From: Anaerolineae bacterium
GTDB taxonomy: Bacteria > Chloroflexota > Anaerolineae > B4-G1 > DUEL01
DNA: 64,000 nucleotides
Assembly: GCA_025060135.1 (NCBI GenBank)
Contig: JANXCY010000001.1
Coordinates: 77,226 to 141,225, forward strand
Direction of reading: 5' to 3'
The position numbers and the translations under genes are program-made. The notes below the pieces were generated by a model that was not told the origin of the DNA, made no database searches, and saw only the letters and a program-made list of their open reading frames with translations. Below, piece by piece: positions 33,625 to 62,516 of this stretch. Each line of letters opens with the position of its first letter. Position 1 is the first letter of the stretch.

Positions 33625-35949
33625 ATGGAAGCCTTTCAAGGGGCCGCCGGCCTGGAAGTACCCGGTGTGGGAATGCGCGGTGGCCTGGGACGGACCATCC
33701 TGACCGCCTTCCTAATCCTGGCCATTGTGCCACTCAGTCTCGTCAGCTGGTATGCCTCTACCCGCCACCGTCAGAACATCCAGGAGGAAGTCAGCGGCAA
33801 ACTGGTAACCATTGCCGCTCTCAAAGAAGCCCAGATCACCCGCTGGCTGGAGGAGCAGGCCACGGCTCTGGCTGACCCTGACCTGCAGGCCGCTATCCGA
33901 CAGGCCGCTGCGACCTCTCCCGGAGAGTTCCGTTCCCACCTGATTGCTCTGGCTTCCCAGAACGGCTTTGTTGACCTGGCCCTGGTGGGGCCTCAGGGGC
34001 GGGTGGAACAGGCTGGCGACCCTTCCTGGGAGGGGGACGTGGTCCCCTTCCCTTCTAACCCCGAAACCTTCGCGGTGCAGACCTCTTTGAACCCGGTGGG
34101 TCGAGGGCAGATTATTCTGACGGGGCCCCTAGGCTTCGCCCGCTGGCCCTATGTGGCGGCCCGGCTCTCTATGGAAGGACTGGACCGGATCCTGGAAGAG
34201 CGCACCGGGCTGGGACATACGGGGGAGGCGTACCTGGTAGACCGTTCCGGGTTCGCGGTTCCTCAGAACCGTCGGCTTTCGGGGCCGGCGATTCAGGCAG
34301 TGCTGGCAGGTCAGAATGGGCAGGGCCTGTACCCGAACTACGCGGGTCGGCCAGTGATCGGTGTCTACCGGTGGCTTCCGGCTCTGGGTGTAGCCCTGAT
34401 CGTAGAACAGACCCAGGAAGAGGCTTTCGCGAGCAACGAGAGCGTCACCGCAGCCGTCATCGCGGCTACCCTGGGAGTGGCTATCGCGACGGCAGCGATT
34501 GCGGCGGTCGTTACCCGCCAAATTACCCGCCCCGTGGTCCGGCTCACCGAATCCGCCCTCCACATCGCCGCCGGTGACCTTTCTCAGCGAGTGGACATCA
34601 CCTCGCGGGATGAAATCGGTATCCTGGCGGATGTCTTTAACCGGATGGCAGCGGAACTGGAGATATTGTATAATGACCTGGAGGCAAAAGTTGCCGAGCG
34701 GACCCGTCTGCTCCAGCAGGCCAACTACCAGATTCAGCGGCGTGCCCTCCAGTTGCAGGCCAGCCTGGAAGTCGGGCAGGCGGTTACTTCAATTTTGGAT
34801 CCTGACACGCTTCTGGACCGGGTGGTGCGGGTGGTGCGGGACTGCTTTTACTACTCATATGTGGCCGTCTACACCACCGACGACTCGGGCAATGGCCTGG
34901 CCCTGCGGGCATCCGTAGGAGAAGCCGACCCGTTCCACGGGGAGCAGGTGCCCAGAGATTCGGCCGGTGCCGTAGGACAGGCGTTTCGAGATGGGCGTGC
35001 GGTGGTGGAAAGCCGCTCCGTTCCTCTCAAGGTCGGCCCCCCCCTTTCCTACGCCCGATCCGAAGTCGCCTTGCCCCTCCGCCTGGGCGATCGGGTGCTG
35101 GGTGTGCTGGACGTCCAGAGCACCCAGCCAGAGGCGTTTGATCAGGACGACGTGTCGGTCCTGCAGAACGTGGCCAACCAGGTGGCTATCGCGCTAGAAA
35201 ACGCCCGGGCCTACGCACTGGAACGGGAAGCCGCCGAGCGGCTGCGGGAACTGGACCGTTCCAAGCGCCGCTTTCTGGCGAACATGTCCCATGAACTGCG
35301 GACACCCTTGACCAACATCATCGGCTTTGCCCGCCTGATGCTGAAAGGCGTGGATGGTCCGCTTACCGACCAGCAACGATATGACCTGGAAATTATCTAT
35401 CATAATGGAGAGCATCTTCTGGGGCTGATTAACGATCTCTTGGATATTTCCCAGATTGAAGCGGGCCTGATGGAACTGGAGTTTCGGGAAGTGGACCTGA
35501 GTGAACTGATTCGCAGCGTTATGGCGACAGCCAGCGCACTGGTGCGGGGGAAGCCGGTGGTGCTGAAAGAAGTGGTATCTCCCGACCTGCCCAGAGTGAA
35601 GGCCGACCCGGCGCGCATTCGTCAGGTGCTATTGCGGCTCCTGACCAATGCTGCCAAATTCACTGACCAGGGCACCATCACGATCCAGGCGTGGCCTGCC
35701 GATGGAGAGGTCCGGATCAGCGTCAGCGATACCGGGATCGGTATCCCCCCGGAGTTCCGCGAGCGTATCTTTGAGCGTTTTGAGCAGGGCTTAATGGAAA
35801 ACGGCCGTCGTCCCGATGGGGCTGGTCTGGGACTGGCGCTGAGCAAAGAATTCGTGGAGATGCACGGCGGACGCATCTGGGTGGAAAGTGAGGTGGGGAA
35901 GGGCTCTACCTTTACCTTCACCCTTCCTCAGGCCCCGCCCTCCGGATAA
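33625..35949 (+). CDS. Membrane histidine kinase with dCache, HAMP and GAF domains
   Basis: The 774-residue protein has one helix at 22-42, an extracellular dCache-like sensor (about 45-268), a second helix (about 273-297), HAMP (298-350), a coiled coil, GAF (about 385-527), HisKA with phospho-acceptor His556 in MSHELRTPL, and HATPase_c with LTNAAKF, DTGIGIPPEF and GLGLALS (about 640-770). It senses an outside ligand and phosphorylates response regulators, most likely the two lone receivers just upstream. The start at 33625 precedes a short cytosolic tail. A GTG or the internal ATG at residue 17 are alternatives. The HisKA-HATPase part closely resembles that of the giant kinase at 56475. Confidence 0.92.
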   Translation: MEAFQGAAGLEVPGVGMRGGLGRTILTAFLILAIVPLSLVSWYASTRHRQNIQEEVSGKLVTIAALKEAQITRWLEEQATALADPDLQAAIRQAAATSPGEFRSHLIALASQNGFVDLALVGPQGRVEQAGDPSWEGDVVPFPSNPETFAVQTSLNPVGRGQIILTGPLGFARWPYVAARLSMEGLDRILEERTGLGHTGEAYLVDRSGFAVPQNRRLSGPAIQAVLAGQNGQGLYPNYAGRPVIGVYRWLPALGVALIVEQTQEEAFASNESVTAAVIAATLGVAIATAAIAAVVTRQITRPVVRLTESALHIAAGDLSQRVDITSRDEIGILADVFNRMAAELEILYNDLEAKVAERTRLLQQANYQIQRRALQLQASLEVGQAVTSILDPDTLLDRVVRVVRDCFYYSYVAVYTTDDSGNGLALRASVGEADPFHGEQVPRDSAGAVGQAFRDGRAVVESRSVPLKVGPPLSYARSEVALPLRLGDRVLGVLDVQSTQPEAFDQDDVSVLQNVANQVAIALENARAYALEREAAERLRELDRSKRRFLANMSHELRTPLTNIIGFARLMLKGVDGPLTDQQRYDLEIIYHNGEHLLGLINDLLDISQIEAGLMELEFREVDLSELIRSVMATASALVRGKPVVLKEVVSPDLPRVKADPARIRQVLLRLLTNAAKFTDQGTITIQAWPADGEVRISVSDTGIGIPPEFRERIFERFEQGLMENGRRPDGAGLGLALSKEFVEMHGGRIWVESEVGKGSTFTFTLPQAPPSG

Positions 35950-35974
35950 CTGCGAACCCGAGGAGGAACAGGGA

Positions 35975-36898
35975 ATGGCTTTGACGTTTACCCGGGCGGA
36001 AATCTCCCAGATCGTGCTGGAAGAGGTCCAGAAGGCCATTACGGAAGACAAAAACTTCCGGTACTGGCTGATTGGTCTCCTGAACGAGGCCTTTCCCTCC
36101 CGGATGGAACTTCAGCAGGTCATCCAGCAAATCCACGAGGAGACCGATCGGAAGATCGCGGCCTATCGGGAAGAGACCCGGCAGGAGATTGCGGCCTATC
36201 GGGAAGAGAGCGAACGGCGGCTGGAAGCATTCCGCCAGGAGATGGCGGCTCATCGGGAAGAGGTCCAGCGGCAACTGGAGGCTTTCCGCCAGGAGATGGC
36301 CGCCCTGCGGAGCGAATTCCAGCAGGAGATGGCCGCCCTGCGGAGCGAATTCCAGCAGGAGATGGCTAACCTACGGAGTGAATTCCAGCAGGAGATGGCC
36401 GCCCTGCGGAGCGAATTCCAGCAGGAGATGGCCGCCCTGCGGGAAGACTTTAACCGGCAGATGGCCACTCAGCGAAGCGAGTTTCAGCAGGCCATTGGTC
36501 GCCTGGAGGCGACCCTGGGTGCGCTGGGCGCCCGCTGGGGGATGATGGCGGAAGAAGCATTCCGGTCCGGCATGGCGGGCATCCTGAAAGACCGCCTCGG
36601 CTGGGAAGTGGAACGGTTCCTGGCCCCGGACCCGGAAGGGTTTGTCTTTGGCCATTCGGATCAGGTGGAAATTGACGTTGTGATCCACAATAGCGTCCAC
36701 TGGCTGGTGGAAATTCGCTCCTCAATGAGCAAACCGGATATGTACACCTTTGTTCGGAAAGTCGCTTTCTATGAGCGGCTGCGGCAGGTCCGGGTGGACC
36801 GTCGCATCGTGATTTCGCCGATGATCCACCCTCAGGCGATGGCGGTGGCGCGGGAGATGGGGATAGAAGTCTACACGTCGGTGTACGACGTCTCGTGA
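35975..36898 (+). CDS. Coiled-coil protein with PD-(D/E)XK nuclease-like C-terminal domain
   Basis: The 307-residue protein has a helical N-terminus (FTRAEISQIVLEEVQKAITE), a long coiled coil (about 45-175) with tandem 11-residue repeats of the form EMAALRSEFQQ, a connector GALGARWGMMAEEAFRSGM, and a C-terminal alpha/beta domain. That domain shows GHSDQVEIDVVIHN, then WLVEIRSSMSKPDM, which fits a restriction-endonuclease-like core (DUF3782-type families). The usual Glu-x-Lys is Glu-x-Arg here. ATG at 35975 follows AGGAGGAAC. It begins 25 bases after the kinase and is 18 bases before the ParA gene. A paralogue lies at 42263. Confidence 0.75.
   Translation: MALTFTRAEISQIVLEEVQKAITEDKNFRYWLIGLLNEAFPSRMELQQVIQQIHEETDRKIAAYREETRQEIAAYREESERRLEAFRQEMAAHREEVQRQLEAFRQEMAALRSEFQQEMAALRSEFQQEMANLRSEFQQEMAALRSEFQQEMAALREDFNRQMATQRSEFQQAIGRLEATLGALGARWGMMAEEAFRSGMAGILKDRLGWEVERFLAPDPEGFVFGHSDQVEIDVVIHNSVHWLVEIRSSMSKPDMYTFVRKVAFYERLRQVRVDRRIVISPMIHPQAMAVAREMGIEVYTSVYDVS
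36290..36451. repeat. 33-bp tandem repeats inside the coiled-coil gene
   Basis: Four to five copies of a 33-bp unit (GAGATGGCCGCCCTGCGGAG then CGAATTCCAGCAG) run head to tail, nearly identical in DNA. Each encodes one 11-residue hendecad. Copy number could change by slippage. Confidence 0.8.
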
Positions 36899-36916: not shown

Positions 36917-37741
36917 ATGACCGCAGTGATTGCGATTGCCAACCACAAAGGTGGCGTGGCCAAGACGACGACCTGCCTGTCCCTTGGGGGGGCTCTGACT
37001 GAGCAGGGGTTCCAGGTCCTGGTGGTGGACCTGGACCCTCAGGCCCATCTGACCCTCTCCCTGGGTTTTCGCCCCGAGGAAATGCGGCATACGGTGGCTG
37101 AGGTGTTGCTGGAACAGCAATCCATCGTGGCCGTGAGCCGGGAAACCCAGGTGGCCGGGCTGGACCTGGTTCCTGCCAGCGGAGAACTGGTCATCTTGGA
37201 TAAGGCCCTCTATGGACGCCCAGGCTACGAGTTTCGGCTGCGGGAAGCGCTGGCGCGTATGTCTCCGCTTTACGACTTTATCCTGATGGATTGCCCCCCT
37301 TCTTTCGGCACCATCACCCTCAACGCCCTGACCGCGGCCCACCTGCTGGTCATCCCCGTCCAGTGCGAGTATTATGCATGGCATTCCCTGCGCTCCATGC
37401 TGGAATTGGTGACCCTGATCCGGGAGAAAACCAACCCCATACTCCGTTACCGACTTCTGGTAACGATGTTTGATGTGCGGAGCCGGGTCCACCGTTTGGT
37501 CTTGGAGCAGGTCCATCGGGTGTTCTCCAGTGCTGTCTTCCGAACCATCATTCAGGTGGACGCGCGCATCCGGGAAAGCCCTGCGCACGGTCTGCCCGTT
37601 GTCTATTATGCTCCCAAGACCCGTGCCGCGATGCAGTATCGGGCTCTGGCAGAGGAGGTGGTGGCCACCCTGAGTTCTGCCAGGCCCCCGGTTGCTTCCC
37701 CTCCACAGGTGCACCCAGTGGAGCAACCGGTGGAAGCGTGA
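36917..37741 (+). CDS. ParA/Soj-type ATPase without ParB
   Basis: The 274-residue P-loop protein has the deviant Walker A motif KGGVAKTTT (about residues 11-19), Walker A' / B regions VLVVDLDPQAHLTLSLG and FILMDCPPSFGTITLNAL, and VIPVQCEYYAWHSLRSML. It is most like chromosomal Soj and the orphan ParA proteins that place receptor arrays, carboxysomes or other cargo by cycling on the nucleoid. The C-terminus is extended and proline-rich. There is no parB or parS nearby. It lies between a coiled-coil protein and a receptor. An in-frame GTG one codon before the chosen ATG is an alternative start. Confidence 0.9.
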   Translation: MTAVIAIANHKGGVAKTTTCLSLGGALTEQGFQVLVVDLDPQAHLTLSLGFRPEEMRHTVAEVLLEQQSIVAVSRETQVAGLDLVPASGELVILDKALYGRPGYEFRLREALARMSPLYDFILMDCPPSFGTITLNALTAAHLLVIPVQCEYYAWHSLRSMLELVTLIREKTNPILRYRLLVTMFDVRSRVHRLVLEQVHRVFSSAVFRTIIQVDARIRESPAHGLPVVYYAPKTRAAMQYRALAEEVVATLSSARPPVASPPQVHPVEQPVEA

Positions 37742-37786
37742 TAGCACTGCCCGCAGGTGCAGGGAAGGGATGAAGGAGTGAACCGT

Positions 37787-40054
37787 ATGGAACAGATCAG
37801 ACGGTCTCTGGAAGAGTTGTTTTCCGGTTTTGCGCCCCCTCCGCCGGAAGGGGTTGCACCCGCCCCGCCTCCGGAGGAGGCCCCTCCTCCACCGGCCCCT
37901 CCTGTGGCGGCCCCGGTGTCTCCTGTACCTCCGGTTGCCCCTCCGCCTCGTCCGCCGGAGCGACCCATACCGCGGCGGGAGGAGGAGATTGCTTCTATCG
38001 TGGGGGCGCATATTAGTAACATCCGCTCCCAACTTCTGGGCAATGCATTGATTATTCTGATGGTGATTGTCTGGATTGCCTTTCTCCTGGGCGGCGCGAT
38101 TGTCCGTTTGAGTCGAGCGATGGCTGATGCCGAATTGGAGACCCGGCGATGGAGCGTGGCTCTGGAGGCTGGAAGAACCGTTTCCGAACTCTCCACCGTT
38201 GTGGGACAGGGTATTCTGCTTCAGGACGAAAATCTCCTTATCACAGGGGTGGAAGGAGTTCGACATGGGGTCCAGTCCGCCCGAAACCGGCTGCGGGAAA
38301 GCGCAGCCGATCTGCCCATAACGGACCCGCTGTGGGCCGACCTGATGTCGCTGGAGGCCAGTGTCGCTGAGGTAGATGGGTGGATGGATTTTGTCCTTAA
38401 CGAGGCCAGCAAGGGGGATTGGAGAGGGGTGGGTGTCCTCCATGCTCAACTGATCTCCAGTTACTTTCGGGAGATCAGCAACGGAATCAACCGCATCCGG
38501 GAACGGACGTTGGAGCGCCGCGACATCGCTATGGCACGGGTGGCGGAGTCCCAGCGACTGCTGCGGGACATCTCCCTTGCCTGGGGAGCTGTTCTAGTCC
38601 TGGTGATCCTGGGAGTCAATTTGGGACTTCTGCGGAGCATAGCAGCCCCCCTGGAGCAGTTGACCGAAGCTGCTGCCCTGCTGGCCTCTGGTCGTCTGGA
38701 TACCCGGGTGGGTGTAGACCGGGCGGATGAATTCGGTCGCCTGGCTCAGGCCTTCAACGAGATGGCTGACCGCCTGCAGACCCTGTACAATGAACTGGAA
38801 GACCGGGTGCGGGAACGGACCCGGGCGCTCCAGGAGGCCAACTATGCTCTTCAACGGCGGGCCATTCAACTGGAGGCCAGTGCGGAGGTAAGCCGGGCCA
38901 TCACCTCCATTTTCAACGTAGATGAATTGTTGCGCCAGGCGGTTGACCTGATTCGGGACCGCTTCGGTTTCTATCACGCTGGGATTTTCCTGCTGGACGA
39001 GACCGGAGAGTGGGCGGTTCTGCAGGAGGCGACGGGCGAAGCCGGTGCTCTGATGAAAGCGCGGGGCCATCGCCTGCAGGTGGCAGAGACCAGCATGGTC
39101 GGCTGGACCGCGCTCCATCGCAAGCCTCGTATCGCGTTGGATGTGGGAGAGGATGCAGTCCACTTTGCTAACCCTCTCCTCCCGTACACCCGCTCGGAGA
39201 TGACCCTCCCGCTGATGGTCGGTGGACGGCTCCTGGGGGTACTGGACGTTCAGTCCACAGAGGAAGCCGCTTTTGATGAAGACGACGTCCGCACGCTCCA
39301 GAGCATGGCCGACCAGTTGGCGATCGCTATAGAGAATGCCCGACGGCTTTCGGAAACGGCCGCATTTCTGGAAGCGACCAGTCCCATCTATCGCTTCAGC
39401 CGTCGGCTGAGCACGGCGGCCACCGTGGAAGACGTCGCCAATGTGATTATTGCCACCGTTTCCGAGACCGAGGCGGATGGGTGTGTGGTGGTGGAATTTG
39501 AATCTATGAACGGCACCCCGAAGACCCTGATCTACCGGGGGGTCTGGCGGCGAGACCGGGAGCCTACATTCCGACCCGGAATGCGTATCGCGGTGGAAGA
39601 GGCCCCGCTACCGGTTCCGCTGCTGAGCCGCATCTGGGTCAGTGAGGATGTCCAGCAAGATTCCCAGTTGCCCGATCGGGCCCGGGACCTCTTCCAGACC
39701 ACGGGCGTCGGTGCTGTGGTGAACATCCCCCTGCGGGTGGGCAACCAGCCAATGGGGCAGGTCGTGATCCTCCGCTCTACGCCGGGCCCCTTCTCCCTCA
39801 CATCGCTGCGTCTGTATGAGGTCATTGGTGATCAGGCCGCCCTGGCGCTGGAGCGGGCCCGTCTACTGGAAGAGGCTCAGCGGCGGGCTGCCCGGGAGCG
39901 GCTGGTGGCTCAAATCTCCACCCGGCTCCGGGCTTCCCTGGACCCGGATACCATTCTGAAGACAATGGTTCGGGAGTTGGGGCGGGAGTTGGGAGCCCGC
40001 TGGACGGCTGTAGAGATCACTGGACCGGCGAGGTCTCCAGATTCCGGCTTCTGA
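37787..40054 (+). CDS. Membrane receptor with HAMP and two GAF domains, no output domain (receptor 1)
   Basis: The 755-residue protein opens with a short helix (MEQIRRSLEELFSGF), then about 50 Pro/Ala-rich cytosolic residues. Next come a membrane helix (about 84-108), an extracellular helical sensor (about 110-260), a second helix (264-286), HAMP (283-336), a GAF domain of the shared type (368-518, RDRFGFYHAGIFLLDETGEW), a second divergent GAF (528-692) and the shared C-terminal tail (705-755). No kinase, cyclase or methylation region follows. It must pass its signal by contact. It starts 45 bases after the ParA gene. GTG at 37778 is an alternative start. Confidence 0.85.
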   Translation: MEQIRRSLEELFSGFAPPPPEGVAPAPPPEEAPPPPAPPVAAPVSPVPPVAPPPRPPERPIPRREEEIASIVGAHISNIRSQLLGNALIILMVIVWIAFLLGGAIVRLSRAMADAELETRRWSVALEAGRTVSELSTVVGQGILLQDENLLITGVEGVRHGVQSARNRLRESAADLPITDPLWADLMSLEASVAEVDGWMDFVLNEASKGDWRGVGVLHAQLISSYFREISNGINRIRERTLERRDIAMARVAESQRLLRDISLAWGAVLVLVILGVNLGLLRSIAAPLEQLTEAAALLASGRLDTRVGVDRADEFGRLAQAFNEMADRLQTLYNELEDRVRERTRALQEANYALQRRAIQLEASAEVSRAITSIFNVDELLRQAVDLIRDRFGFYHAGIFLLDETGEWAVLQEATGEAGALMKARGHRLQVAETSMVGWTALHRKPRIALDVGEDAVHFANPLLPYTRSEMTLPLMVGGRLLGVLDVQSTEEAAFDEDDVRTLQSMADQLAIAIENARRLSETAAFLEATSPIYRFSRRLSTAATVEDVANVIIATVSETEADGCVVVEFESMNGTPKTLIYRGVWRRDREPTFRPGMRIAVEEAPLPVPLLSRIWVSEDVQQDSQLPDRARDLFQTTGVGAVVNIPLRVGNQPMGQVVILRSTPGPFSLTSLRLYEVIGDQAALALERARLLEEAQRRAARERLVAQISTRLRASLDPDTILKTMVRELGRELGARWTAVEITGPARSPDSGF

Positions 40055-40092: not shown

Positions 40093-42273
40093 ATGATGTT
40101 CCAGTGGCTGAGACGATGGCTGGCTCCGCCTATCTTTGAGGACGAGGCGAAGACCCGCTCAGCGGGCCTGCTCTATACGATTCTTCTCTTGCTCTTTACT
40201 TTCACTGTACTGACAGTACCGTACATGGCGATGACGGCCTCCAGCCGGGATATCGCCATCGCGGACCTGGTCATCGGTATCCTGGTTGGGTTGATGACAT
40301 GGGGTGGGATCGTCCTCACCCGCCGGGGGTATGTGCAGGCTGCCGGAGTGTTGCTTTCGTTGTTCCTGCTGGCTCTCATTACCGGGATGCTCGTTTATTT
40401 TCGAGGAATCCGGGATCCATCCAGCACTATGTACTTTGTCGTGATTGCTGTAGCGGCGTTACTGCTGGGTGCGCGTACCGCGCTGCTCTTTGGCCTGCTC
40501 AGTATCCTCTGTGCACTGGGAGTATACTACGCTGAGGTGCGCGGATGGGTCGTCTATCCGATGGCGCTCTCGGTGGACTGGTTTGACTGGTTCCTGCTCT
40601 CTATCTCTTTGGCGATGGGGGCTCTGCTCCTGTGGTACGCTGTGCGGAGTATTGAACAGGGGTTTGCCAGCGCGACCCGCCATGCCCGGGAACTGGAAAG
40701 AGTGAACCGCGAATTGATCGCCAGCCAGAACATGCTCCAGGCCCAGGCCCGAGACCTGGCCCGGCGGGCTCGATACCTGGAAGCCACGGCCATTGTCACC
40801 AAAGAAGCTACTTCGGCGTTGAACGTGGAGATGCTGCTTTCGCGAGTGGCGGCGTTGATTTCCGAGTGCTTCGGCTTCTATCACACGGGTATCTTTCTGA
40901 TAGATGAGGCTGGGGAGTACGCCATTCTGCGGGCGGCCTCTTCAGAAGGCGGACAGCGGATGCTGGCCCAGGGCTACCGGCTGGCAGTAGGAAGGGAAGG
41001 GGTCATTCCTGATGTGGTCAGGACGGGACAGCCCCGTATCGCACTGAATGTAGGGGAAAACGCGACCGTTGGGGATAACCCTGATCTGCCACTGACCCGT
41101 TCGGAACTGGCATTGCCGCTGAGGGTGGGTGAGCGAGTGATCGGGGTGCTGGATGTTCATTCCGCGGAGCCAGAGGCATTTTCAAAGGAAGATGTGGCGG
41201 TCTTGCAGACGCTGGCGGACCAGGTTGCGCTGGCCATTCAGAACGCCCGCCTGCTGGAGGAGACCCAGGACCGCCTGCGGGAGGTCGCTGCCCTGACCCG
41301 GGAATACGCCGTCCGAGAATGGGAGCGGTTGGTCTCCACCCGCCCAGGTTGGGGGTATGTGTACGATGGAGTGGAGGCGATGCCCAGCGAAGTGGCACCG
41401 GTGGATCGTTCGGGCGCCGCGCTCACCCTGCCACTCCAGATACCGGGAGGTGAGCCTATCGGACGGTTGCTGGTGGCGCTCCCGGACCGCCCTCCGGATC
41501 CGGAGGAGATCGCGCTGGCCCGGACGGTCGTTGAACAGGCCACGCAGGCGCTGGAGAGCGCCCGTCTTTTCCAGGAGACCCGACGGACCCTCTCAGAGAT
41601 GGAAGTTCTCTATCGGGCTAGTCAGGCGATCAGTACCGCGGGGAATCCCGACGAGGTTTTGCACGCCTTTGTGGACCACATTGTCCCGACGCAGATTGAT
41701 CGCTGTATCCTGGCGCTCCTGGACCCGGCGAGCCCGGAGGAACCGACAATAGAACTGATCGCCGCGTGGGATCGCGGGAAAGAGAAGTCACCCGTCTTGG
41801 GCCGCCGTTGGAGTGTGGCTCAGATCCCGTTCCTCGGTCGCCTGACGACCGAACCCGTGGTGGTGTCCGATGTGGCTAATGCCGTCGATGTAGATGAGAC
41901 ATCCCGGCATATCGCGCTGAACGTGTTGGGTATTCGGGCGTTCCTGGCGATTCCTCTGGTGACGAGACAGCGGCTGCTGGGCTGGCTGCTGGTGGAATCC
42001 CTCACCGGGCCTTACGAATTCACTGAACGGGAAATCCGCCTCTACCGGACACTGGCCGACCAGGCGGCAGTGGCGCTGGAGCGGATGCGTCTCTTTGAGG
42101 AGACCCGGCGCCGGGCTGAATGGGAACGTATCCGCGCTGAGGTCTCTGCCCGGGTGCGCGCGTCCACTGATATGGAAACCATTCTACGCACCGCTGTCCG
42201 GGAACTGGGGCGGGCCTTCCGGGCCGCCGAGGGCGTTATCCAACTGCATAGAGGCGATGGCTATGGCAGTTGA
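40093..42273 (+). CDS. Six-helix membrane receptor with GAF domains, no output domain (receptor 2)
   Basis: The 726-residue protein has about six membrane helices in residues 23-190 with short loops, so the sensor is inside the membrane instead of outside (MASE/7TM-like). A coiled coil (190-235) joins to the shared GAF block (236-386, FGFYHTGIFLIDEAGEYAIL and RAASSEGGQRMLAQGYRLAV), a shortened GAF (396-490), a third GAF (500-670) and the shared tail (673-726). There is no catalytic domain. The end overlaps the next gene by 11 bases. The ATG at 40093 follows AAAGGGTGGG. Confidence 0.85.
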   Translation: MMFQWLRRWLAPPIFEDEAKTRSAGLLYTILLLLFTFTVLTVPYMAMTASSRDIAIADLVIGILVGLMTWGGIVLTRRGYVQAAGVLLSLFLLALITGMLVYFRGIRDPSSTMYFVVIAVAALLLGARTALLFGLLSILCALGVYYAEVRGWVVYPMALSVDWFDWFLLSISLAMGALLLWYAVRSIEQGFASATRHARELERVNRELIASQNMLQAQARDLARRARYLEATAIVTKEATSALNVEMLLSRVAALISECFGFYHTGIFLIDEAGEYAILRAASSEGGQRMLAQGYRLAVGREGVIPDVVRTGQPRIALNVGENATVGDNPDLPLTRSELALPLRVGERVIGVLDVHSAEPEAFSKEDVAVLQTLADQVALAIQNARLLEETQDRLREVAALTREYAVREWERLVSTRPGWGYVYDGVEAMPSEVAPVDRSGAALTLPLQIPGGEPIGRLLVALPDRPPDPEEIALARTVVEQATQALESARLFQETRRTLSEMEVLYRASQAISTAGNPDEVLHAFVDHIVPTQIDRCILALLDPASPEEPTIELIAAWDRGKEKSPVLGRRWSVAQIPFLGRLTTEPVVVSDVANAVDVDETSRHIALNVLGIRAFLAIPLVTRQRLLGWLLVESLTGPYEFTEREIRLYRTLADQAAVALERMRLFEETRRRAEWERIRAEVSARVRASTDMETILRTAVRELGRAFRAAEGVIQLHRGDGYGS

Positions 42274-43045
42274 GAAAGACCAAAACATCATTCCCCTGAT
42301 CCGCCAGCAACTGCCGGAATTGATCCGCCGCGACCCGGAAATTCGGGCCTGGGTCCTGCAGATGGCAGAGGAACGCTTCGCGGATCGGGTCCAGACGGAC
42401 CGACGTTTTGCGCAGATGCTGGCCGAAGGGCGCCAGGAACGGGAGGAGTGGAACCGTCGCTGGGAGGAACAGCGCGCCGAGTGGGAGCGCCGCTGGGAAG
42501 AATCGGAGCGGCGCTGGGCCGACTGGGAACAGCGCTGGGAGGAACAACGGGCGGATTGGGAGCGCCGCTGGCAGGAAATGCGCGAGGACTGGGAACGTCG
42601 CTGGCGGGATCATCAGGATATCCTCAGGACACTGACCCAGCGGATAGATACCGGTATCAGCGCCATCGGTGCTCGCTGGGGTATCTTTGCGGAGTCCGCC
42701 TTCCGCAGCGGCATCCAGGCCATCCTGGAGGAGAGTTTCGGTGTCCAGGTCCTTCGGTATCAGGCCTACGACGAGGCTGGCGAGGTGTTTGGGCGCCCCG
42801 ACCAGGTGGAACTGGACCGCCTCATTCGGAATCACACGCTGATCGTTTGCGAGATCAAGTCCTCCATAAGCCGCTCGGATATGCACGCCTTTGACCGGAA
42901 GGTTCGCTTCTACGAGCGGCGGGAAGGTCGGCAAGCCGACTGCAAGATCGTCATCTCCCCGATGGTGGAAGAACAGGCGATGCGGCTTGCCCAGCAGGAA
43001 CTGGGCATTGAGGTGGATACTTACGCCGATGAGGTTCCGCTATAG
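42263..43045 (+). CDS. Second coiled-coil, PD-(D/E)XK-like protein
   Basis: The 260-residue protein is a paralogue of the one at 35975. A helical start (NIIPLIRQQLPELIRRDPEI) leads into a Trp/Arg/Glu-rich coiled coil (about 60-125) with repeated WERRWEE and WADWEQRW units, then ISAIGARWGIFAESAFRSGI. The nuclease-like core follows with FGRPDQVELDRLIRN and CEIKSSISRSDM, in which the Glu-x-Lys is intact. The ATG at 42263 lies 8 bases after GAGG and inside the end of receptor 2, so translation is coupled. Nuclease activity is a structural inference only, and such folds can also serve purely for binding. Confidence 0.75.
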   Translation: MAVEKDQNIIPLIRQQLPELIRRDPEIRAWVLQMAEERFADRVQTDRRFAQMLAEGRQEREEWNRRWEEQRAEWERRWEESERRWADWEQRWEEQRADWERRWQEMREDWERRWRDHQDILRTLTQRIDTGISAIGARWGIFAESAFRSGIQAILEESFGVQVLRYQAYDEAGEVFGRPDQVELDRLIRNHTLIVCEIKSSISRSDMHAFDRKVRFYERREGRQADCKIVISPMVEEQAMRLAQQELGIEVDTYADEVPL

Positions 43046-43061
43046 CGGTGAGGTGAACCCT

Positions 43062-44900
43062 ATGGAGCGCTTTTCTTTCCGACAGTTTTTGAACACCCTG
43101 GGTGGCCGGTTGATTGGCCTGGTTCTCTTCCTCATCGTCATCGCCATCGCTGGTGGCATTATCATCGGCGTCCAATTGCTCCGCATTCGCGCGGCGGTGA
43201 ATGTGATGGAGGAAACGACCCGATCGCTGGAAGTGGCCATGCTGGTCGCCCGGGAGACGACGAGCCTGGTCCTGCGCGTCTGGGAAGACATGGAAGGCGG
43301 GGTTTCTCTGGAGGAGTTAAAACGGGATATTTCCCCCTCCGTGATCGCTATAGAGACCTATCAGCAGGCCCTTCGGGACCAGGCCCGGTCTCTGCCGGTG
43401 GGGGATAGGCTCCGGGTCAGTATGGAGATTGTGGCGGATCGTTCGGTCAGCGTGTCCAGAGTGGCATACCCCGTGATCCAGGCAATAGAGGCCGGTCGGT
43501 GGGTGTCCGCCCGGTACTTGTTGCAAGCGATGGCGACCCATAACCGGCTGATGGAAGAGGAGGTAACGAGGATGGTCGCTCTGGCCCGGGAGCGCCACGG
43601 GCAGGCCATGGTGGAAGCCCGACGGGCGGCCCGGGGAGTGCTTATTGTTGTCCCGGTAGCGGCGGTAACGGTCATCCTGGCAGCGATCGTGGCTGGAACA
43701 GTGGCTCTGCGCGGCGTGGTGACCGGGATGCGCACGCTCTCCGTCTCTGCCCGCCGATTGGCAGAGGGCCATCTGGAAGAACGGGTCCCCGTTCGGGGGT
43801 TGGAGGAATTCCGCTTCCTGGCCCGCACGCTCAACGAGATGGCTGCTGAAATCCAGGGCCTCTACACCGGACTGGAGCATCTGGTGGCCCAACGCACTGC
43901 TGAATTGGCCCGCCGAACCGCGCAACTGGAAGCCGCGGCTACAGTGGCCCGTCGCGCTGCCGAAATCCGGGATGTGGATACGCTCCTGAATGAGACGGTG
44001 CGCCTGATCTCCGACCGTTTCGGCTTTTACCACGCGGGCATCTTTCTGGTGGACGAAGCCGGAGAGTATGCGGTTCTGCGGGCGGCCTCTTCGGAAGGCG
44101 GGCAGCGGATGCTGGCCCGGGGTCACCGATTGGCCGTGGGCCGGGTCGGTATTGTGGGATACGTGGCGGGGACGGGAAAGCCGCGCATCGCGCTGGACGT
44201 GGGCGCCGATGCTGTCTTCTTTGATAACCCCGACCTGCCGTTGACCCGTTCCGAGATGGCGGTGCCGTTGAAGGTGGGAGAGCGAGTCATCGGTGTGCTG
44301 GATGTCCAATCTGAAAAACCGGCGGCTTTCGCGGAAGAGGATGTGGCGATCCTGCAAACCCTGGCGGATCAGATTGCTCTGGCGATAGAGAATACCCGTC
44401 TGCTGGAGGAAAGCCGTCGGACGCTGGAGGAACTGGAGCGGCTATATGGGGAGCGGGTGCGCGAGGCCTGGCGTAGGTGGGCTGTGGCTCGTCCGACCGC
44501 TTACCGCTATACGGGCATAGATGTGGAGCCCCTGCCAGCACCGATCCCGCTGACCGACGAAGAGGACGGTCGGCGGCTGGCCGTACCCATCCGTCTCTGG
44601 GGACAGACCATCGGGTCGATTCTGCTTCACCGTACAAAGGAGCAACCCCTGTGGTCGCCGGAGGAGCGGCGGCTGGCGGAGGAGATCGGTGATCAGATTG
44701 CCCTGGCGCTGGAGAATGCCCGGCTGATCGCAGAGACTGAGAGTCGGGCTGCCCGCGAACACATGCTCAGCGAGATCACCTCCCGTCTGACACGTTCGCT
44801 GGATATAGATGCCCTGCTGGAAACAGCGGTGAGAGAGTTGGCCCAATTGCCGCAGGTGGCAGAGGTAGCGGTGTACGTGGGAGGCCCGGAAGAGCAGTAA
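43062..44900 (+). CDS. Membrane receptor with helical sensor, HAMP and GAF (receptor 3)
   Basis: The 612-residue protein has helix one at 12-36, an all-helical extracellular part (about 37-188, four-helix-bundle type), helix two (190-215), HAMP (217-268, RLAEGHLEERVPVRGLEEFR), a coiled coil, the shared GAF (300-447), the shortened GAF (460-560) and the shared tail (563-612). It has no catalytic or methyl-accepting region. Its membrane part is very similar to that of receptor 6 at 51456, so the two come from a recent duplication. A GAGGTG ribosome site precedes the ATG, which lies 16 bases after the previous stop. Confidence 0.88.
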   Translation: MERFSFRQFLNTLGGRLIGLVLFLIVIAIAGGIIIGVQLLRIRAAVNVMEETTRSLEVAMLVARETTSLVLRVWEDMEGGVSLEELKRDISPSVIAIETYQQALRDQARSLPVGDRLRVSMEIVADRSVSVSRVAYPVIQAIEAGRWVSARYLLQAMATHNRLMEEEVTRMVALARERHGQAMVEARRAARGVLIVVPVAAVTVILAAIVAGTVALRGVVTGMRTLSVSARRLAEGHLEERVPVRGLEEFRFLARTLNEMAAEIQGLYTGLEHLVAQRTAELARRTAQLEAAATVARRAAEIRDVDTLLNETVRLISDRFGFYHAGIFLVDEAGEYAVLRAASSEGGQRMLARGHRLAVGRVGIVGYVAGTGKPRIALDVGADAVFFDNPDLPLTRSEMAVPLKVGERVIGVLDVQSEKPAAFAEEDVAILQTLADQIALAIENTRLLEESRRTLEELERLYGERVREAWRRWAVARPTAYRYTGIDVEPLPAPIPLTDEEDGRRLAVPIRLWGQTIGSILLHRTKEQPLWSPEERRLAEEIGDQIALALENARLIAETESRAAREHMLSEITSRLTRSLDIDALLETAVRELAQLPQVAEVAVYVGGPEEQ

Positions 44901-49040: not shown

Positions 49041-51335
49041 ATGCCGGAAGAACGAGAACGACCGCGTCCCCGGACTCGCAGTCTGGTTGCTGTATTGACC
49101 ACTGCGCTGCTGGCGTTGAGCGTATCCACGTTGCTGGTCGTCAGCGGATTCCAGGTTTTTACCTTCGTGCGGGCCTATCAGGAATTTGTGATCCGTCAGC
49201 AGCAGTTGATCACTCAGGATGTAGCGCGAACGGTTACCGATTTCATCCAGGACCATTTCCGGGTTCTGGAAGCGACTACCCGGGTCACCAAAGTGCTCTG
49301 GTCCGCCCCTCAGGCCCAACAGGATTTTCTGATTTATCTCATGAGTCTCCAGCCGTCCATTCGCCATCTGGTGCTCCTGAATTACCGGGGATGGAAACTG
49401 GCCGAATATGCCCGGGCATCCATGCCGTCGGCGAAAAGCCCTCTGGAGCGCCTCAGTGCAGACTGGTTAGACCAGGTTAACAGGGGGCAGAGGTACATCA
49501 GTCCGGTGTACGTGGACGAGCGAACCAGCGAGCCGATGGTCGTCATCGCAGTGCCGGTTACCAACATCCTTGGAGACATCCAGGGTGCTTTGGTGGCTGA
49601 GGTCAATCTGAAATTCATGTGGGACCTGGTAGACCGGCTGAGGGTGGGGGATACGGGGTTTGCGTACGTGGTGGACCGGGATGGCAACCTTCTGGCGTTC
49701 AGAGATATTGCCCGGGTTCTTCAAGGTGAGAATGTCGCGTATCTGAAAGAGGTCGGCGAGTTCGTCGGCAGTCTGGCGCCGGTGGATGAGACAGGTGCGA
49801 GCATCTCTCGGGGGATTGAGGGCACCCTGGTAGTAGCTACCTATGCTCCCCTGGGGACACCGGACTGGGCAGTGGTGACGGAAATCCCTGTGGCAGAGGC
49901 GTATCGCCCGATCATTAACTCGTTGATTCTCGTGGGGGCTGTGCTGGTGACCGTGATCGTGATTGTGGGAGGGTTCAGCAACCAGATTGCCCGCCGGTTG
50001 AGTGCTCCGCTGCGTCAACTGGCCTCTATTTCCAGCCGGATTGCGGGGGGTGAACTGAGCCTGGAGGCGCGCGTGGAACGGGGGCCAGCTGAGGTTGTCT
50101 CGCTGGCCCAGGCGTTCAATCAGATGACAGCCCGATTGCGCGAGCTGATCAGCGGCCTGGAGCAGCAGGTGGCGGCCCGCACGGCTGCCCTGACCCGCCG
50201 CACGACGGAACTGGAGGCTGCCGCCTACGTAGCCCGCCGGGCCGCCGAAATCCGCCGAATGGATATGCTCTTGAACGAGACGGTGCGGGTAATTTCTGAT
50301 CGTTTTGGTTTTTACCATGCGGGGATCTTCCTGATAGATGAAGGGGGAGAATATGCCGTTCTCCACGCGGCTTCTTCGGAGGGCGGGCAACGGATGCTGG
50401 CCCGGGGCCACCGGCTGGAAGTGGGCCGGGTTGGTATTGTCGGCTATGTGGCGGGAACGGGTCAGCCCCGCATCGCGCTGGATGTGGGGGCAGATGCCGT
50501 CTTCTTTGATAACCCGGACCTCCCGGAGACCCGTTCGGAAATGGCGTTGCCGCTGAAAATCGGCGACCGGGTCATCGGTGTGCTGGATGTCCAGTCTCGA
50601 GAGCCGGCCGCGTTTACCGATGAGGATGTGGCGATTCTCCAGGTGATGGCCGACCAGATCGCCCTGGCCATTGAGAATGCCCGCCTGCTGGAGGAAGCCG
50701 AACGGGCCCTGGCGGAAGTTCGGGCTCTCTACGGCGAATATCTTCGGGGTGCCTGGCGACAACTGGCCCGTCGCCAGAGGACGCTGGGATACCGTCGTAC
50801 CATCCAGGGTGGCCGGTTCCTGACCCCCGAGGAAGTCCAATCGCTGCAAGAGGACCCGACGGTCTGGCCTGTCCTGGCGCGGGGAGAAATTCACGTGCAA
50901 GCGGCTTCGGACGATGGGGGCGAGGCCCGACTTCTGGCTCCCGTACGGTTGCAGGAGCAGGTCATCGGGGTGCTGCAGATCAGGCCACCCGTCCGGAATT
51001 ATCGCTGGTCGCCCGAAGAAATCGCGCTGGTCCGCTCTATTGCCGACCGGCTGGCCCTGGCGCTGGAGAACGCCCGCCTCTTGGAGGAGACCCGTCGTCG
51101 CGCCGAGCGAGACCGGCTGATTGCCGAAATTACTGCCCGAGTGCGCGCGTCCCTGGACCCGAAAATCGTCTTGCAGACCGCAGTGAAGGAACTGGGACAG
51201 GCCCTGGGCGTGAGCCGAGTACTCTTGCAAATGGGTACGGAACTCTCCCTTCAGGGTGATGGTGCTCAACCCGATGTGGAGGGCAATGGACGGAGTGAAG
51301 CCCAGCCGGAGGAATCTCCTCGGAAACCTGACTGA
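49041..51335 (+). CDS. Membrane receptor with dCache, HAMP and GAF domains (receptor 5)
   Basis: The 764-residue protein has helix one at 16-38, an extracellular dCache sensor (about 45-290, with LVLLNYRGWKLAEYAR, YISPVYVDERTSEPMVVIAV and DTGFAYVVDRDGNLLAF), helix two (292-312), HAMP (313-370), a coiled coil, the shared GAF (400-550), the shortened GAF (555-680) and the shared tail (685-735). It ends in a hydrophilic 28-residue extension. dCache domains bind small molecules such as amino acids or carboxylates. It has no kinase. GGGGAGGAA precedes the ATG, 137 bases after the binding-protein gene. Confidence 0.88.
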   Translation: MPEERERPRPRTRSLVAVLTTALLALSVSTLLVVSGFQVFTFVRAYQEFVIRQQQLITQDVARTVTDFIQDHFRVLEATTRVTKVLWSAPQAQQDFLIYLMSLQPSIRHLVLLNYRGWKLAEYARASMPSAKSPLERLSADWLDQVNRGQRYISPVYVDERTSEPMVVIAVPVTNILGDIQGALVAEVNLKFMWDLVDRLRVGDTGFAYVVDRDGNLLAFRDIARVLQGENVAYLKEVGEFVGSLAPVDETGASISRGIEGTLVVATYAPLGTPDWAVVTEIPVAEAYRPIINSLILVGAVLVTVIVIVGGFSNQIARRLSAPLRQLASISSRIAGGELSLEARVERGPAEVVSLAQAFNQMTARLRELISGLEQQVAARTAALTRRTTELEAAAYVARRAAEIRRMDMLLNETVRVISDRFGFYHAGIFLIDEGGEYAVLHAASSEGGQRMLARGHRLEVGRVGIVGYVAGTGQPRIALDVGADAVFFDNPDLPETRSEMALPLKIGDRVIGVLDVQSREPAAFTDEDVAILQVMADQIALAIENARLLEEAERALAEVRALYGEYLRGAWRQLARRQRTLGYRRTIQGGRFLTPEEVQSLQEDPTVWPVLARGEIHVQAASDDGGEARLLAPVRLQEQVIGVLQIRPPVRNYRWSPEEIALVRSIADRLALALENARLLEETRRRAERDRLIAEITARVRASLDPKIVLQTAVKELGQALGVSRVLLQMGTELSLQGDGAQPDVEGNGRSEAQPEESPRKPD

Positions 51336-56474: not shown

Positions 56475-59400
56475 ATGAGCCAATCCGGAATGATGGTCTC
56501 AAAAGAACTGATGGAATTCCTGGTTGCTGGTCGTGAGGAACTGGAACGGCGGTTGTGGGAATCGCTGCAGGCTACGCTGTTCACCAACCGCGTGACCATC
56601 CGCCCGGCGCACCTGGGGCAGATGGCCCGGGAGGAAACGGAGGCCTTTCTGGCCTTCCTGCAGGACGGCAACCTGACCCCGATTCGGGAGCGGGGCGCGC
56701 AGCGTCTCCGGGATGGGCTGGGAGAGAAGGCCGTCCTGGACCTGGCGACCGCTCTCCGGCTCTTCTGCGCGGCCCACCTGACGGGAGACCGGCTCGTGGA
56801 GGGCCTGCGGGTCGCCGATGCATACATGGGCGCTTTCCTGGAAGGCTATCTGGAGGCCCGTGAGGCGATGATCCTGGAGGAGCAGGAAGGCCTTCGGGCC
56901 GCTTTTGAGCGGGCGCTGGCTGATGCTGCCCGCCGGCTGGAGGTGGCAGTCGAGGTCGGGCGGAGTTTCTCCGCCATCCTGGACCTGGAGGAACTGCTCC
57001 GGACGGCTGTCCAGATGATCCGGGAACGGTTCAGCCTCTACTATGTGGGCATTTTCCTGACCGATGAGTATGGCCGGTGGGCAGTGCTCCGGGCCGGTGC
57101 CGGAGAGGAGGGAGCCGAAGGCCCGGCCCCGGGCTTCAAACTGGAGGTCGGAGGCGATTCGGCCATTGGCCAGTGCATGGCTCGTGGCGAGCCCCTGGTC
57201 TTCTATGAGGTCGGAGAGAGTTCGGCTCAATGGACCCCGTTACTTCCCGAGACCCGGGCGGAGGTGGTCCTGCCCCTGGTCGCGCGGGGCCGGATTGTGG
57301 GCGCTTTAACCCTGCAGAGCCGCCGGACTCCGGGTTTCACTCCCGAGGACGTAACGGCGTTCCAGATCCTTGCTCTGGAGGTCGCCGCGGCGTTGGAGAA
57401 TGCGCGGCTGCTTGCCGAAGCGCAGGCTCGGGCCCAAGAAGTGGAAAAAATCCACCGCCGCTACCTGCGGGAGGAATGGGACCGTTTCGTCTCGGAGGTC
57501 GCCGAGCATCGGCCGATCAGTTATGCCTACGACCAGGCCACCGGCTCGGTATCCCCCCTGCGGGATGGCCGTTGGCCCGGGCTGGAAGAAGTAACGCAGG
57601 AGCGGCGGACGGTGGCTCTCAGCGATGCGGCTTCCCTTCTTCCCTCACCCGATATGCCAGCCCTTCCGAAGGCCGCGCTGGCCGTCCCGCTCACCCTGCG
57701 GGAGGAAGTCATTGGTGCGGTGGGTTTCTATGAAATGGAGAGCCCGCGCGCCTGGTCTCCGGAGGAGATCGCACTGGTGGAGGCCATTTCGGCTCAGGTG
57801 GCGATGGCGATTGAGAATGCCCGCCTCTTTGAGCAGACCCAGCGGGCCCTGGCCGAGACCGAATTGCTGTATCAGGCCGGTGCGGAACTGAACGCGGCCC
57901 AATCCTATGATGAGGTTCTGGCCGTCCTGCAGAAATACACGCTTGTCGGCGAGGCGGACCGCAATGTGAGCCTGAACCTCTACGACCGGCCATGGGTCGG
58001 CGAAGATGTCCCGGAGTGGAGTATCCCTGTTGCCCGGTGGACACGACTATCCCCCGAGGCGTTAAGCGACCGCTATCCTCTGCGCGCTTTCCCTTCTGCT
58101 GCCCGTTTGCTCCGGCCTGACGCGCCGACCATCATCTCCGATGTCGCCACCGATGCCCAGATGGACGAACGAGCGCGGGCTCTTTATCGGGACCGCTTCC
58201 AGGCTGGAAGCACCATCTTTATCCCTCTGGTGGTGGCCGGGCAGTGGATCGGGTACATCAATGCCATTTACAGCCAGCCGCGCGAATTTCCCGAAGCGGG
58301 TGTACGCCGTTTAATGGCCCTGGCCGGTCAGGCCGCGATCGCGGTCCAGTCCATCCGCCGCCTGGAGCAGACCCAGCAGGCCCTGGCGGAGACGGAGGCC
58401 CTTTACCGGGCCGCTCGGGCCATCAGCGAGGCGACATCGGTGGAAGAGATCGCCCGGGGGGCAGCGCTGGTAGCCCCGCTCCTGGGTTGTACGGCCTGTG
58501 CTCTTACCGTTGCCACTCTGACCGACCCGGATGGGATCCCCACCCACGGCGACATCTATCCGGTGATGGCGGCCGGTGAGCAGTGGCTGACTTTCCCACC
58601 CATGCAGGCGTTTCCTATCGCAGACCCTCAGGCTGCCCGTCGGGTACTGGATGAGCCGGACTTTGTCCTGGTCTACGCCGACGTGGAGGACCCTGGATTG
58701 GACATTCCCAGCGTAGTTCGGGAGAACACCCGCAATATGGGTATGCGCGGGATGGTAACCGCCGGATTGAGCATGTTCGGACGGGCCCTGGGATTCCTGA
58801 GTTTCCTCAGCCCGAATCCAATCGCCGGTCTTTCCGAAGAGCAGAAGCACCGCATTCGCACCATTGCCGACCAGGTAGCGATAGCGCTGGAAAACCGCCG
58901 CCTGCTGGAGGAAACCACCCGCCGGGCGGCGCAATTGGCTACGGCTGCCGAAGTCTCCAGTGCGGCTTCGTCCATCCTCAGCCTGGAGGAACTCCTCCCC
59001 CAGACTGCTGAACTGATCCGCCAGCGGTTTAACCTCTATTATGTTGGTATCTTTCTGCTGGATGAGACGGGTCGCTGGGCCGTCCTGCGGGCCGGCACCG
59101 GTGAGGCCGGCCGCCAGATGCTGGAAATGGGCCACAAACTGGAGGTCGGCGGGAAGTCCATGATTGGCTGGTGTACGGCCAACGCCAAGGCCCGGATCGC
59201 GCTGGACGTGGGCGTGGAGGCCATCCGGTTTGATAACCCCCTCCTGCCCCATACCCGCTCCGAGATGGCCCTGCCGCTGGTTTCCCGGGGTCGGGTCATC
59301 GGCGCGATGACCATCCAGTCCGACCGTCCTGCTGCCTTCACCGAAGAAGACATCACGGTTCTGCAGACGATGGCGGATCAACTGGCGACAGCCATTGAGA

Positions 59401-62400: not shown

Positions 62401-62516
62401 AGCAATTGCTGAATAGCCGGATTGAGGCCCTCCTTCAGAAAGGTGTGCTGGACCGGGAGGAGTTGCTGGAGGACGTCGCTGCCGCGCTGCGCAAGTTGGA
62501 GCGGGTTGCTCGGTAG
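56475..62516 (+). CDS. Giant hybrid histidine kinase with about eight GAF modules and two receivers
   Basis: The 2013-residue protein has no membrane segment. In order it shows an RsbRD-N-like domain (1-150), GAF modules at about 150-312, 322-449 (shortened type), 459-632, 636-809, 819-982, 986-1152, 1159-1325 and 1332-1495, then HisKA with His1521 in MSHELRTPLNS. HATPase_c follows (about 1575-1735; LVSNAAKF, DSGIGIPPEK, GTGLGLTISK), then a receiver with Asp1816 in TLDVMMPGKDGW and a second receiver with Asp1937 in ILDLLMPEMDGF. It could collect signals from the kinase-less receptors and pass phosphate inside itself. GAGGAGATGAGGG precedes the ATG. Confidence 0.93.
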   Translation: MSQSGMMVSKELMEFLVAGREELERRLWESLQATLFTNRVTIRPAHLGQMAREETEAFLAFLQDGNLTPIRERGAQRLRDGLGEKAVLDLATALRLFCAAHLTGDRLVEGLRVADAYMGAFLEGYLEAREAMILEEQEGLRAAFERALADAARRLEVAVEVGRSFSAILDLEELLRTAVQMIRERFSLYYVGIFLTDEYGRWAVLRAGAGEEGAEGPAPGFKLEVGGDSAIGQCMARGEPLVFYEVGESSAQWTPLLPETRAEVVLPLVARGRIVGALTLQSRRTPGFTPEDVTAFQILALEVAAALENARLLAEAQARAQEVEKIHRRYLREEWDRFVSEVAEHRPISYAYDQATGSVSPLRDGRWPGLEEVTQERRTVALSDAASLLPSPDMPALPKAALAVPLTLREEVIGAVGFYEMESPRAWSPEEIALVEAISAQVAMAIENARLFEQTQRALAETELLYQAGAELNAAQSYDEVLAVLQKYTLVGEADRNVSLNLYDRPWVGEDVPEWSIPVARWTRLSPEALSDRYPLRAFPSAARLLRPDAPTIISDVATDAQMDERARALYRDRFQAGSTIFIPLVVAGQWIGYINAIYSQPREFPEAGVRRLMALAGQAAIAVQSIRRLEQTQQALAETEALYRAARAISEATSVEEIARGAALVAPLLGCTACALTVATLTDPDGIPTHGDIYPVMAAGEQWLTFPPMQAFPIADPQAARRVLDEPDFVLVYADVEDPGLDIPSVVRENTRNMGMRGMVTAGLSMFGRALGFLSFLSPNPIAGLSEEQKHRIRTIADQVAIALENRRLLEETTRRAAQLATAAEVSSAASSILSLEELLPQTAELIRQRFNLYYVGIFLLDETGRWAVLRAGTGEAGRQMLEMGHKLEVGGKSMIGWCTANAKARIALDVGVEAIRFDNPLLPHTRSEMALPLVSRGRVIGAMTIQSDRPAAFTEEDITVLQTMADQLATAIENARLFAETGQALIETRELFEAGRAISAATTPAEVAQALVRYVARAGLDLARVLVLEPVGDRPAYVIMGEHWAVDGRPVHPYGTRLPIADFGLRQFIQPTEAIVVEDIHNDPRVDAQVRMVLEVLRLGSFALVPISIGSRMLGMLLVGRDAPAVYPEKLVRNLWTLCGQAAIAMENLRLLEETRRRAQELETINEIGRTISSVLDPQAVMRQIVDITKSRFGYHFVGILLTEDRHLVFEDGSTIGNSALRLPPRTIILDIERPGIATDAARVGQPVLVNDVLSDPRFITVPQLSATRAELAVPIEVKGRIIGVLDVHSDRTHAFGQADVLLLTSLASAAGVALENARLFAETEAEAHRRALISEVLQVAATTMDPYELLRRAAGAIARRLEMPTLVMEWEPETEALRLVTVHGADGAEIPMPSDGRVSRQQAPLLVDALFRSETTVLRDIPHTTTGRLVGLARQWGLMDAALAPMLIRGQPVGLLALGRPPGHPPIDEGEMEFLNIVAGNLSVAWENARLYQEAVETAERLKEVDRLKSQFLANMSHELRTPLNSIIGFSRVILKGIDGPITEQQRQDLEAIFNSGQHLLGLINDILDISKIEAGKMELSFEPTDLGEIIRGVMSTAIALVKDKPIELQQSIPPELPTIIADSRRIRQVLLNLVSNAAKFTDQGFIRVEAHADEEFVTISVSDSGIGIPPEKLPHIFEAFTQVDASPSRKYGGTGLGLTISKSFVELHGGKIWVESELGKGSTFTFMLPIQGPPHLRMEVQPELVEEAPSLEEAPAPEGKGRLVLCVDDDEGVITLFRRYLDRQGYQVVGLTDPFQVVDMVKQVRPFAITLDVMMPGKDGWQVIQELKADPETRDIPVIMCTIVAEKGKGLSLGAADYLVKPILEQDLLAALERLDREEGRHRVLIVDDQPEDRHLLRRIIESQEGYEVTEAASGQEAILLVRQRRPHIIILDLLMPEMDGFAVLEALKADELTRSIPIIVVTAKELTERDKQLLNSRIEALLQKGVLDREELLEDVAAALRKLERVAR

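Follow-up and report, generated by a model that had tools for sequence, protein, structure and literature searches.

A predicted ParA-binding N-terminal tag in a membrane GAF receptor recurs on unrelated proteins encoded behind one clade of ParA ATPases

The window analysed here, a stretch of 64,000 nucleotides from a metagenome-derived Anaerolineae genome of 2.29 Mb, carries an operon in which a histidine kinase, a DUF3782 protein, a ParA-type ATPase and a receptor, here called receptor 1, are followed by more GAF receptors. The kinase upstream of ParA has a HAMP-GAF-HisKA-HATPase architecture (33625..35949; Pfam and synteny), and the ATPase taken as the partner of receptor 1 (36917..37741) is recognized by Pfam AAA_31 (6e-50) and by its Walker A motif, KGGVAKT. 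Receptor 1 is a 755-residue open reading frame (37787..40054; Pfam and hydropathy), preceded by a ribosome-binding site, AAGGAG (37773..37778, from sequence reading), that lies 8 nt before its ATG at 37787. Further downstream, Pfam identifies receptor 2, a GAF protein (40093..42273), receptor 3, a HAMP-GAF protein (43056..44900), and receptor 5, a Cache-HAMP-GAF protein (49041..51335); none of receptors 2 to 5 bears the N-terminal tag described below. All of these features are on the forward strand, and the kinase, optional DUF3782 gene, ParA and receptor 1 keep this order throughout the orthologue family.

The operon contains two coiled-coil DUF3782/PDDEXK_10 proteins (window positions 35969-36898 and 42209-43045); the gene of this kind between kinase and ParA is present in two related genomes (G001, G003) and missing from two others (G002, G004). 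No gene in the receptor array is larger than the 2013-residue open frame at 56475-62516, which has several GAF-like stretches resembling receptor 1.

From its N-terminus, receptor 1 consists of tag, linker, first transmembrane helix, sensor region, second transmembrane helix, HAMP and two GAF stretches (Pfam, hydropathy). HAMP and GAF are its only Pfam matches: the search revealed no kinase domain, no ParB_N CTPase domain and no C-terminal CheW-like AIF domain, the hallmark of ParP; nor was there an MCPsignal match, and receptor 1 does not qualify as an MCP receptor of the TlpT kind. The window also lacks any parS-like site, even when as many as 2 mismatches are allowed. Elsewhere in the genome, ParB_N has a single match, on another contig, and this search gave no second ParB. 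That match belongs to a true ParA-ParB pair, whose ParB has the N-terminal peptide GKFGLGRGLEALIP, reading LGRGLEALI. The proposal, made in a preliminary description of this DNA, that receptor 1 replaces ParB can therefore be kept for the adjacent ParA but not for the genome as a whole, which retains its separate pair.

The predicted ParA-binding tag of receptor 1, MEQIRRSLEELFSGF (37787..37831, forward strand), is assigned from orthologue conservation and from its ParB register; the peptide is also given as MEQIRRSLEELFSGFAPP. Within MEQIRRSLEELFSGF, the core reads I4-R-R6-S-L8-E-E-L11-F12, and I4-R6-L8-L11-F12 match the ParA-contact residues L11-R13-L15-L18-I19 of Myxococcus ParB. The likeness to the ParA-activating peptide of ParB, already noticed in the preliminary description, thus holds in exact register at all five contact positions, with the four hydrophobics and one basic residue of a ParB-type activating motif and without its usual glycines. 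Other details needed correction. The peptide starts where it had been placed, but its 15 codons end one base beyond the 37830 first given; and what had been called a short basic helix is amphipathic but not basic, as the first 15 residues hold two Arg and three Glu (net charge about -1). The Pro/Ala-rich character of the flexible segment leading up to the first membrane helix (37832..38029, forward strand; from composition) was borne out, Pro and Ala making up 58% of residues 16-75. Its length, however, is nearer 60-65 residues than the 50 or so proposed, because the first membrane helix starts at about residue 82 (approximately residues 82-106 by hydropathy).

In shuffles of the first 40 residues of receptor 1, the ParB-register pattern arises in 0.13% of cases. 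Among 104 other N-termini at the surveyed loci, 7 show it too, which makes the receptor 1 sequence on its own no more than suggestive evidence. The tag goes beyond chance because orthologues conserve it: 12 of the 23 residues of the tag region do not vary in a set of eight orthologues whose most distant members have only 46-49% overall identity. Seven full-sequence relatives begin with 3-5 variable residues and continue with [FL]-[KRN]-[RH]-S-L-E-[ED]-L-F-S-[DN]-F-x-P-P-x-P-E. In tag codons 5-13, five close orthologues show 30 silent vs 6 amino-acid-changing differences. The central Arg, whose counterpart in ParB activates ParA, is kept in most of the receptor 1 group, but many relatives have K, N, S or H in its place, which counts against the account preferred below. 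The linker behind the tag diverges freely, and ParA lies directly upstream of receptor 1 in every orthologue. A condition that the preliminary description named as refuting, an N-terminal helix not conserved in orthologues beside ParA, clearly does not apply: conservation covers the tag and leaves out the linker, and the tag goes with ParA and not with the receptor. A chance likeness to ParB was also considered, and is ruled out by this conservation together with the survey of loci.

A profile of the 23-residue tag alone uncovered new tagged genes in four genomes (G051, G021, G008 and G006), all directly behind ParA, and a match in G010 whose locus is cut by the contig start; its chance matches fell inside a RecG-like helicase (G014) and, for G044 and G035, in unrelated proteins. 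The proteins so tagged are not all alike: those of loci L096, L098 and L055 have a different, multi-helix membrane part, and a tagged gene behind ParA in G027 (MSDNDLRDHLSGLFSDL) has yet another. The genome of the window itself holds a second ParA of the same clade, 53% identical to the first (G000:C133:22540-23352; L062 4880-7356, - strand), next to a LytR-CpsA-Psr protein that begins MSTRNSAHQLRRRLEDLFLN and has the tag LRRRLEDLF. A ParA paired with a tagged LytR-CpsA-Psr protein is also seen at L107.

We then surveyed eighty ParA loci picked from the genome collection by ParA similarity. In the first Chloroflexota set, 30 of the 36 non-ParB downstream genes contain the strict tag core within their first 75 residues, vs 1.06 expected from shuffling and a maximum of 6 in 1000 shuffles; three more genes (L103, L111, L126), outside the strict pattern, were counted as tagged by eye. 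The consensus is [LIF]-x-[KRN]-[RS]-L-[ED]-x-L-F, its Phe being partly imposed by the search pattern. After the tag and a loose linker come cargo domains of several kinds, namely GAF receptors, PAS proteins, GAF/PAS hybrid histidine kinases, CheW and LytR-CpsA-Psr proteins, and soluble proteins such as CheW are thus included. Tagged CheW genes stand directly behind ParA at L116, L127, L140, L142 and L211, and at L140 (1025-5395) an MCP gene precedes the ParA-CheW pair. The possibility that the peptide is part of the receptor's membrane module is ruled out by its occurrence on unrelated and soluble proteins. Since it appears on unrelated domains and always beside the same kind of ParA, the tag has the look of a "carry me" label that can be moved from protein to protein and serves their positioning.

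Three further observations were made at ParA loci. At L192, the first gene after ParA starts with a tag, MADKELDRRLDELFGEL, and its product, judged by eye, is similar to formylglycine-generating-enzyme domains, which adds a further type of cargo. At L132, around 4680-4800, ParA is followed by what appears to be a decayed start of a tagged gene (MPRKKN-stop-KIYNRINGL). Additionally, an ftsZ gene with an N-terminal extension lies directly behind ParA in Thermoleophilia (PLAQLF in the extension) and Atribacteria (L167 4465-5709, L177 and L181), and ParA-based positioning of FtsZ is a possible meaning of these pairs.

A second sample was chosen by ParA alone: a ParA profile, and nothing else, was run against 296 genomes of the class, and 90 ParA loci were read. 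Fifty of these ParAs have Tyr81 and Glu117. ParB is encoded next to 44 of them; at three, the next gene encodes a non-ParB, Pro-rich protein with a ParB-like GxG stretch, IGQGIDALF at L262 and weaker forms at L259 and L241 (KGKGIDVLF and GGQGADILF); and at the remaining three, neither ParB nor such a stretch is next. The other 40 ParAs lack Tyr81/Glu117 and have a rewritten pocket. Two of them run off the contig, and a tagged gene is next in 37/38 of the rest, 32 by pattern and five by eye (L202, L203, L214, L216, L219), with ParB next in 0/38. Fisher's P for pocket type against partner type is far below 1e-15 when shared ancestry is ignored; because the loci do share ancestry, however, the count amounts to two clades and not to 88 independent trials. 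The Walker A motif splits the same way in this sample, as KGGVAKT in 38/40 rewritten ParAs and KGGVGKT in 50/50 of the ParB type.

In the ParA tree, all 46 tagged-partner ParAs fall in one clade (support 1.0), inside which those with LytR-CpsA-Psr, CheW, PAS and GAF partners occupy separate branches; counts made over this one clade are not phylogenetically independent. The window ParA has the deviant Walker A motif KGGxxK[T/S], as KGGVAKT, and qualifies for the ParA branch. The equivalents of catalytic D58 and D60 are kept in 46/46 tagged-partner ParAs; that of the DNA-binding R238 of M. xanthus is Arg in the window ParA and R or K in all 46. The pocket residues, on the other hand, differ in step with the type of partner. 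Y81 is found in 0/46 tagged-partner ParAs vs 31/31 ParB-partner ones, and V, I or L at 116 likewise (0/46, where K, Q or R stands instead, vs 31/31). Among the 46, the usual replacements are F, V or A for E117, A or T for L152, and T, D, S or G for L192. With a docking pocket so unlike the ParB type, the mechanism would be at best a remodelled version of that of ParB.

AlphaFold was run, as a monomer only, on the natural in-frame read-through of ParA, the TGA and TAG stops and the receptor 1 N-terminus, with 38 sequences. ParA takes its expected fold in the model (pTM 0.82), for which 9a6n and 8ray are the best matches among solved structures, and the window ParA gives a TM-score of 0.95 by target length against the 8ray ParA-ATP structure. 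In this fused chain the tag is modelled as a helix after a disordered linker, with a pLDDT of about 75, vs 84-91 in a control without ParA. The models thus support the idea that the tag forms a helix; the higher score of the tag alone means that the fused monomer gives no sign of docking.

In the reading we prefer, the amphipathic N-terminal peptide would dock on the ATP-bound ParA dimer, in a remodelled ParB pocket, where we infer that a smaller residue at 152 would face the tag Phe that stands in place of Leu/Ile, and that Lys at 116 would face the Glu pair of the receptor 1 tag. The residues proven important for ParB binding mostly differ in the tagged-partner clade (Y81, V116, E117, L152 and L192 are all replaced), and therefore the tag may bind and activate ParA elsewhere, for instance at a site such as the T site of TP228 ParB or the H site of Helicobacter, its likeness to ParB being convergent. 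Known ParA-partner peptides do use differing sites near the dimer interface (PMC11229316). This alternative, which would swap a single step and is compatible with the remainder of the proposal, seems to us unlikely though worth keeping in mind: the hydrophobic spacing of the tag (0, 4, 7, 8) is that of ParB, and the non-ParB partners of canonical-pocket ParAs have the ParB-like GxG tags mentioned above (clear at L262, weaker at L241 and L259), as would be expected if changes in the tag and in this pocket went together.

Taken together, these results support the earlier suggestion that receptor 1 is a ParA cargo adaptor, since its tag is conserved, keeps the ParB register and tracks one ParA clade. 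We give a probability of roughly 0.78 to the whole account of adaptor, tag docking, ATPase promotion and cluster positioning. In the absence of any binding or ATPase data, the likeliest role of the peptide is that of a ParA tag, and receptor 1 is most likely the cargo adaptor of its adjacent ParA and a functional analogue of ParP and TlpT, not of ParB; a position beside the ATPase, an N-terminal peptide, a linker and a cargo domain, the features of such adaptors, are all in place as judged from sequence and synteny alone. In the mechanism that we infer, the docked tag would promote ATP hydrolysis by ParA, and the Pro/Ala linker would give the membrane-anchored receptor enough reach to meet ParA on the nucleoid. 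In this way a membrane signalling cluster would be spaced and partitioned, made up of receptor 1, the upstream GAF histidine kinase, a probable co-cargo, and the remaining GAF receptors in the operon, of which receptors 2, 3 and 5 are candidate members.

Binding to ParA could also serve signalling instead of positioning, with the sensor controlling a ParA switch or ParA controlling receptor output. FleN and BcsQ are ParA-family regulatory switches for other processes, and most of the cargo domains belong to signalling proteins (GAF, PAS, histidine kinase, CheW). The ParA family is also known to include orphan members whose role is not one of positioning (PMC9178275). We nevertheless regard this explanation as quite unlikely, and more so than binding at another site: the LytR-CpsA-Psr cargo is no signalling protein, the DNA-binding R/K238 kept in all 46 ParAs is expected for nucleoid-based positioning, and the pairing of CheW with ParA fits the positioning systems ParP/ParC and TlpT/PpfA. 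Very improbable, finally, is a peptide unrelated to ParA, namely a membrane-targeting or translation-start element kept by receptor kinship: short amphipathic N-termini can help membrane insertion, and in Anaerolineales a partial overlap between the tag codons and the end of parA could place a constraint on the tag, but the tag also occurs on soluble CheW proteins, is present both with and without the gene overlap, and is lacking in receptors R2-R5 of the same operon.

Beyond receptor 1 as a cargo adaptor, we lean towards an insulated ParA-tag system in Anaerolineae-kind Chloroflexota, in which a rewritten-pocket clade and a nine-residue tag moved among cargos would avoid cross-talk with the chromosomal ParA-ParB pair. 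If this is true, any tagged complex, be it a sensor, a histidine kinase, CheW or a cell-wall enzyme, could be spaced or partitioned on the nucleoid. The partners of orphan ParAs often stay unidentified because no domain is common to them; in the tagged clade, a single short tag would give the partner away at once for at least five types of cargo, and it predicts membrane sensor kinases as positioned cargo. The paired differences in tag and pocket are natural variants for studying ParA-partner specificity, and the tags are candidates for moving chosen proteins about a cell. In the open-licence literature, to which our search was limited, no report was found of the tagged-partner ParA clade of Chloroflexota, or of a Chloroflexota ParA with GAF, CheW or LytR-CpsA-Psr proteins.

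Comparison with known systems starts with ParB. In M. xanthus ParB, each of L11, R13, L15, L18 and I19 is needed for binding or activation; losing the hydrophobics weakens ParA binding, and losing R13 mainly stops activation (PMC12462528). Like this motif (residues 11-19), the receptor 1 tag is a short amphipathic helix at the extreme N-terminus, in which position 2 is basic and positions 0, 4, 7 and 8 are hydrophobic; a flexible segment connects it to its protein, whose gene lies directly behind parA. Unlike it, the tag has charged or polar residues for Gly 1, Gly 3 and Ala 6 and Phe at 8, its protein is a membrane GAF receptor without CTPase or DNA-binding domain, and the cognate ParA has a rewritten pocket. 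Partner proteins of ParA/MinD ATPases (McdB, PomX and others) likewise use an N-terminal stretch for ATPase binding and the remainder for cargo (PMC10241942); those of the McdB/PomX type are extremely diverse and identified case by case, whereas in the tagged clade a single tag is shared by at least five domain types.

In function, the closest known pairs are TlpT/PpfA and ParP/ParC. TlpT of Rhodobacter sphaeroides binds the orphan ParA-like PpfA on the nucleoid and seeds a signalling cluster (PMC10924463); receptor 1 is also a receptor paired with an orphan ParA-like ATPase, its binding being inferred, but TlpT is a cytoplasmic MCP, and receptor 1 sits in the membrane and has no MCP signalling domain. 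ParP of Vibrio couples the orphan ParA-like ATPase ParC to chemosensory arrays by means of an N-terminal ParC-binding part, a long Pro-rich linker and an array-integrating domain (PMC5706961). Receptor 1 shares the N-terminal ATPase-binding part, as predicted, and the long Pro-rich linker; unlike ParP, it is a transmembrane protein with HAMP and GAF and no CheW-like domain. Its tagged CheW relatives (L116, L127, L140, L142 and L211) are very close to ParP and look like its Chloroflexota counterparts, and the MCP gene upstream of the ParA-CheW pair at L140 fits the ParC-ParP logic (PMC5706961).
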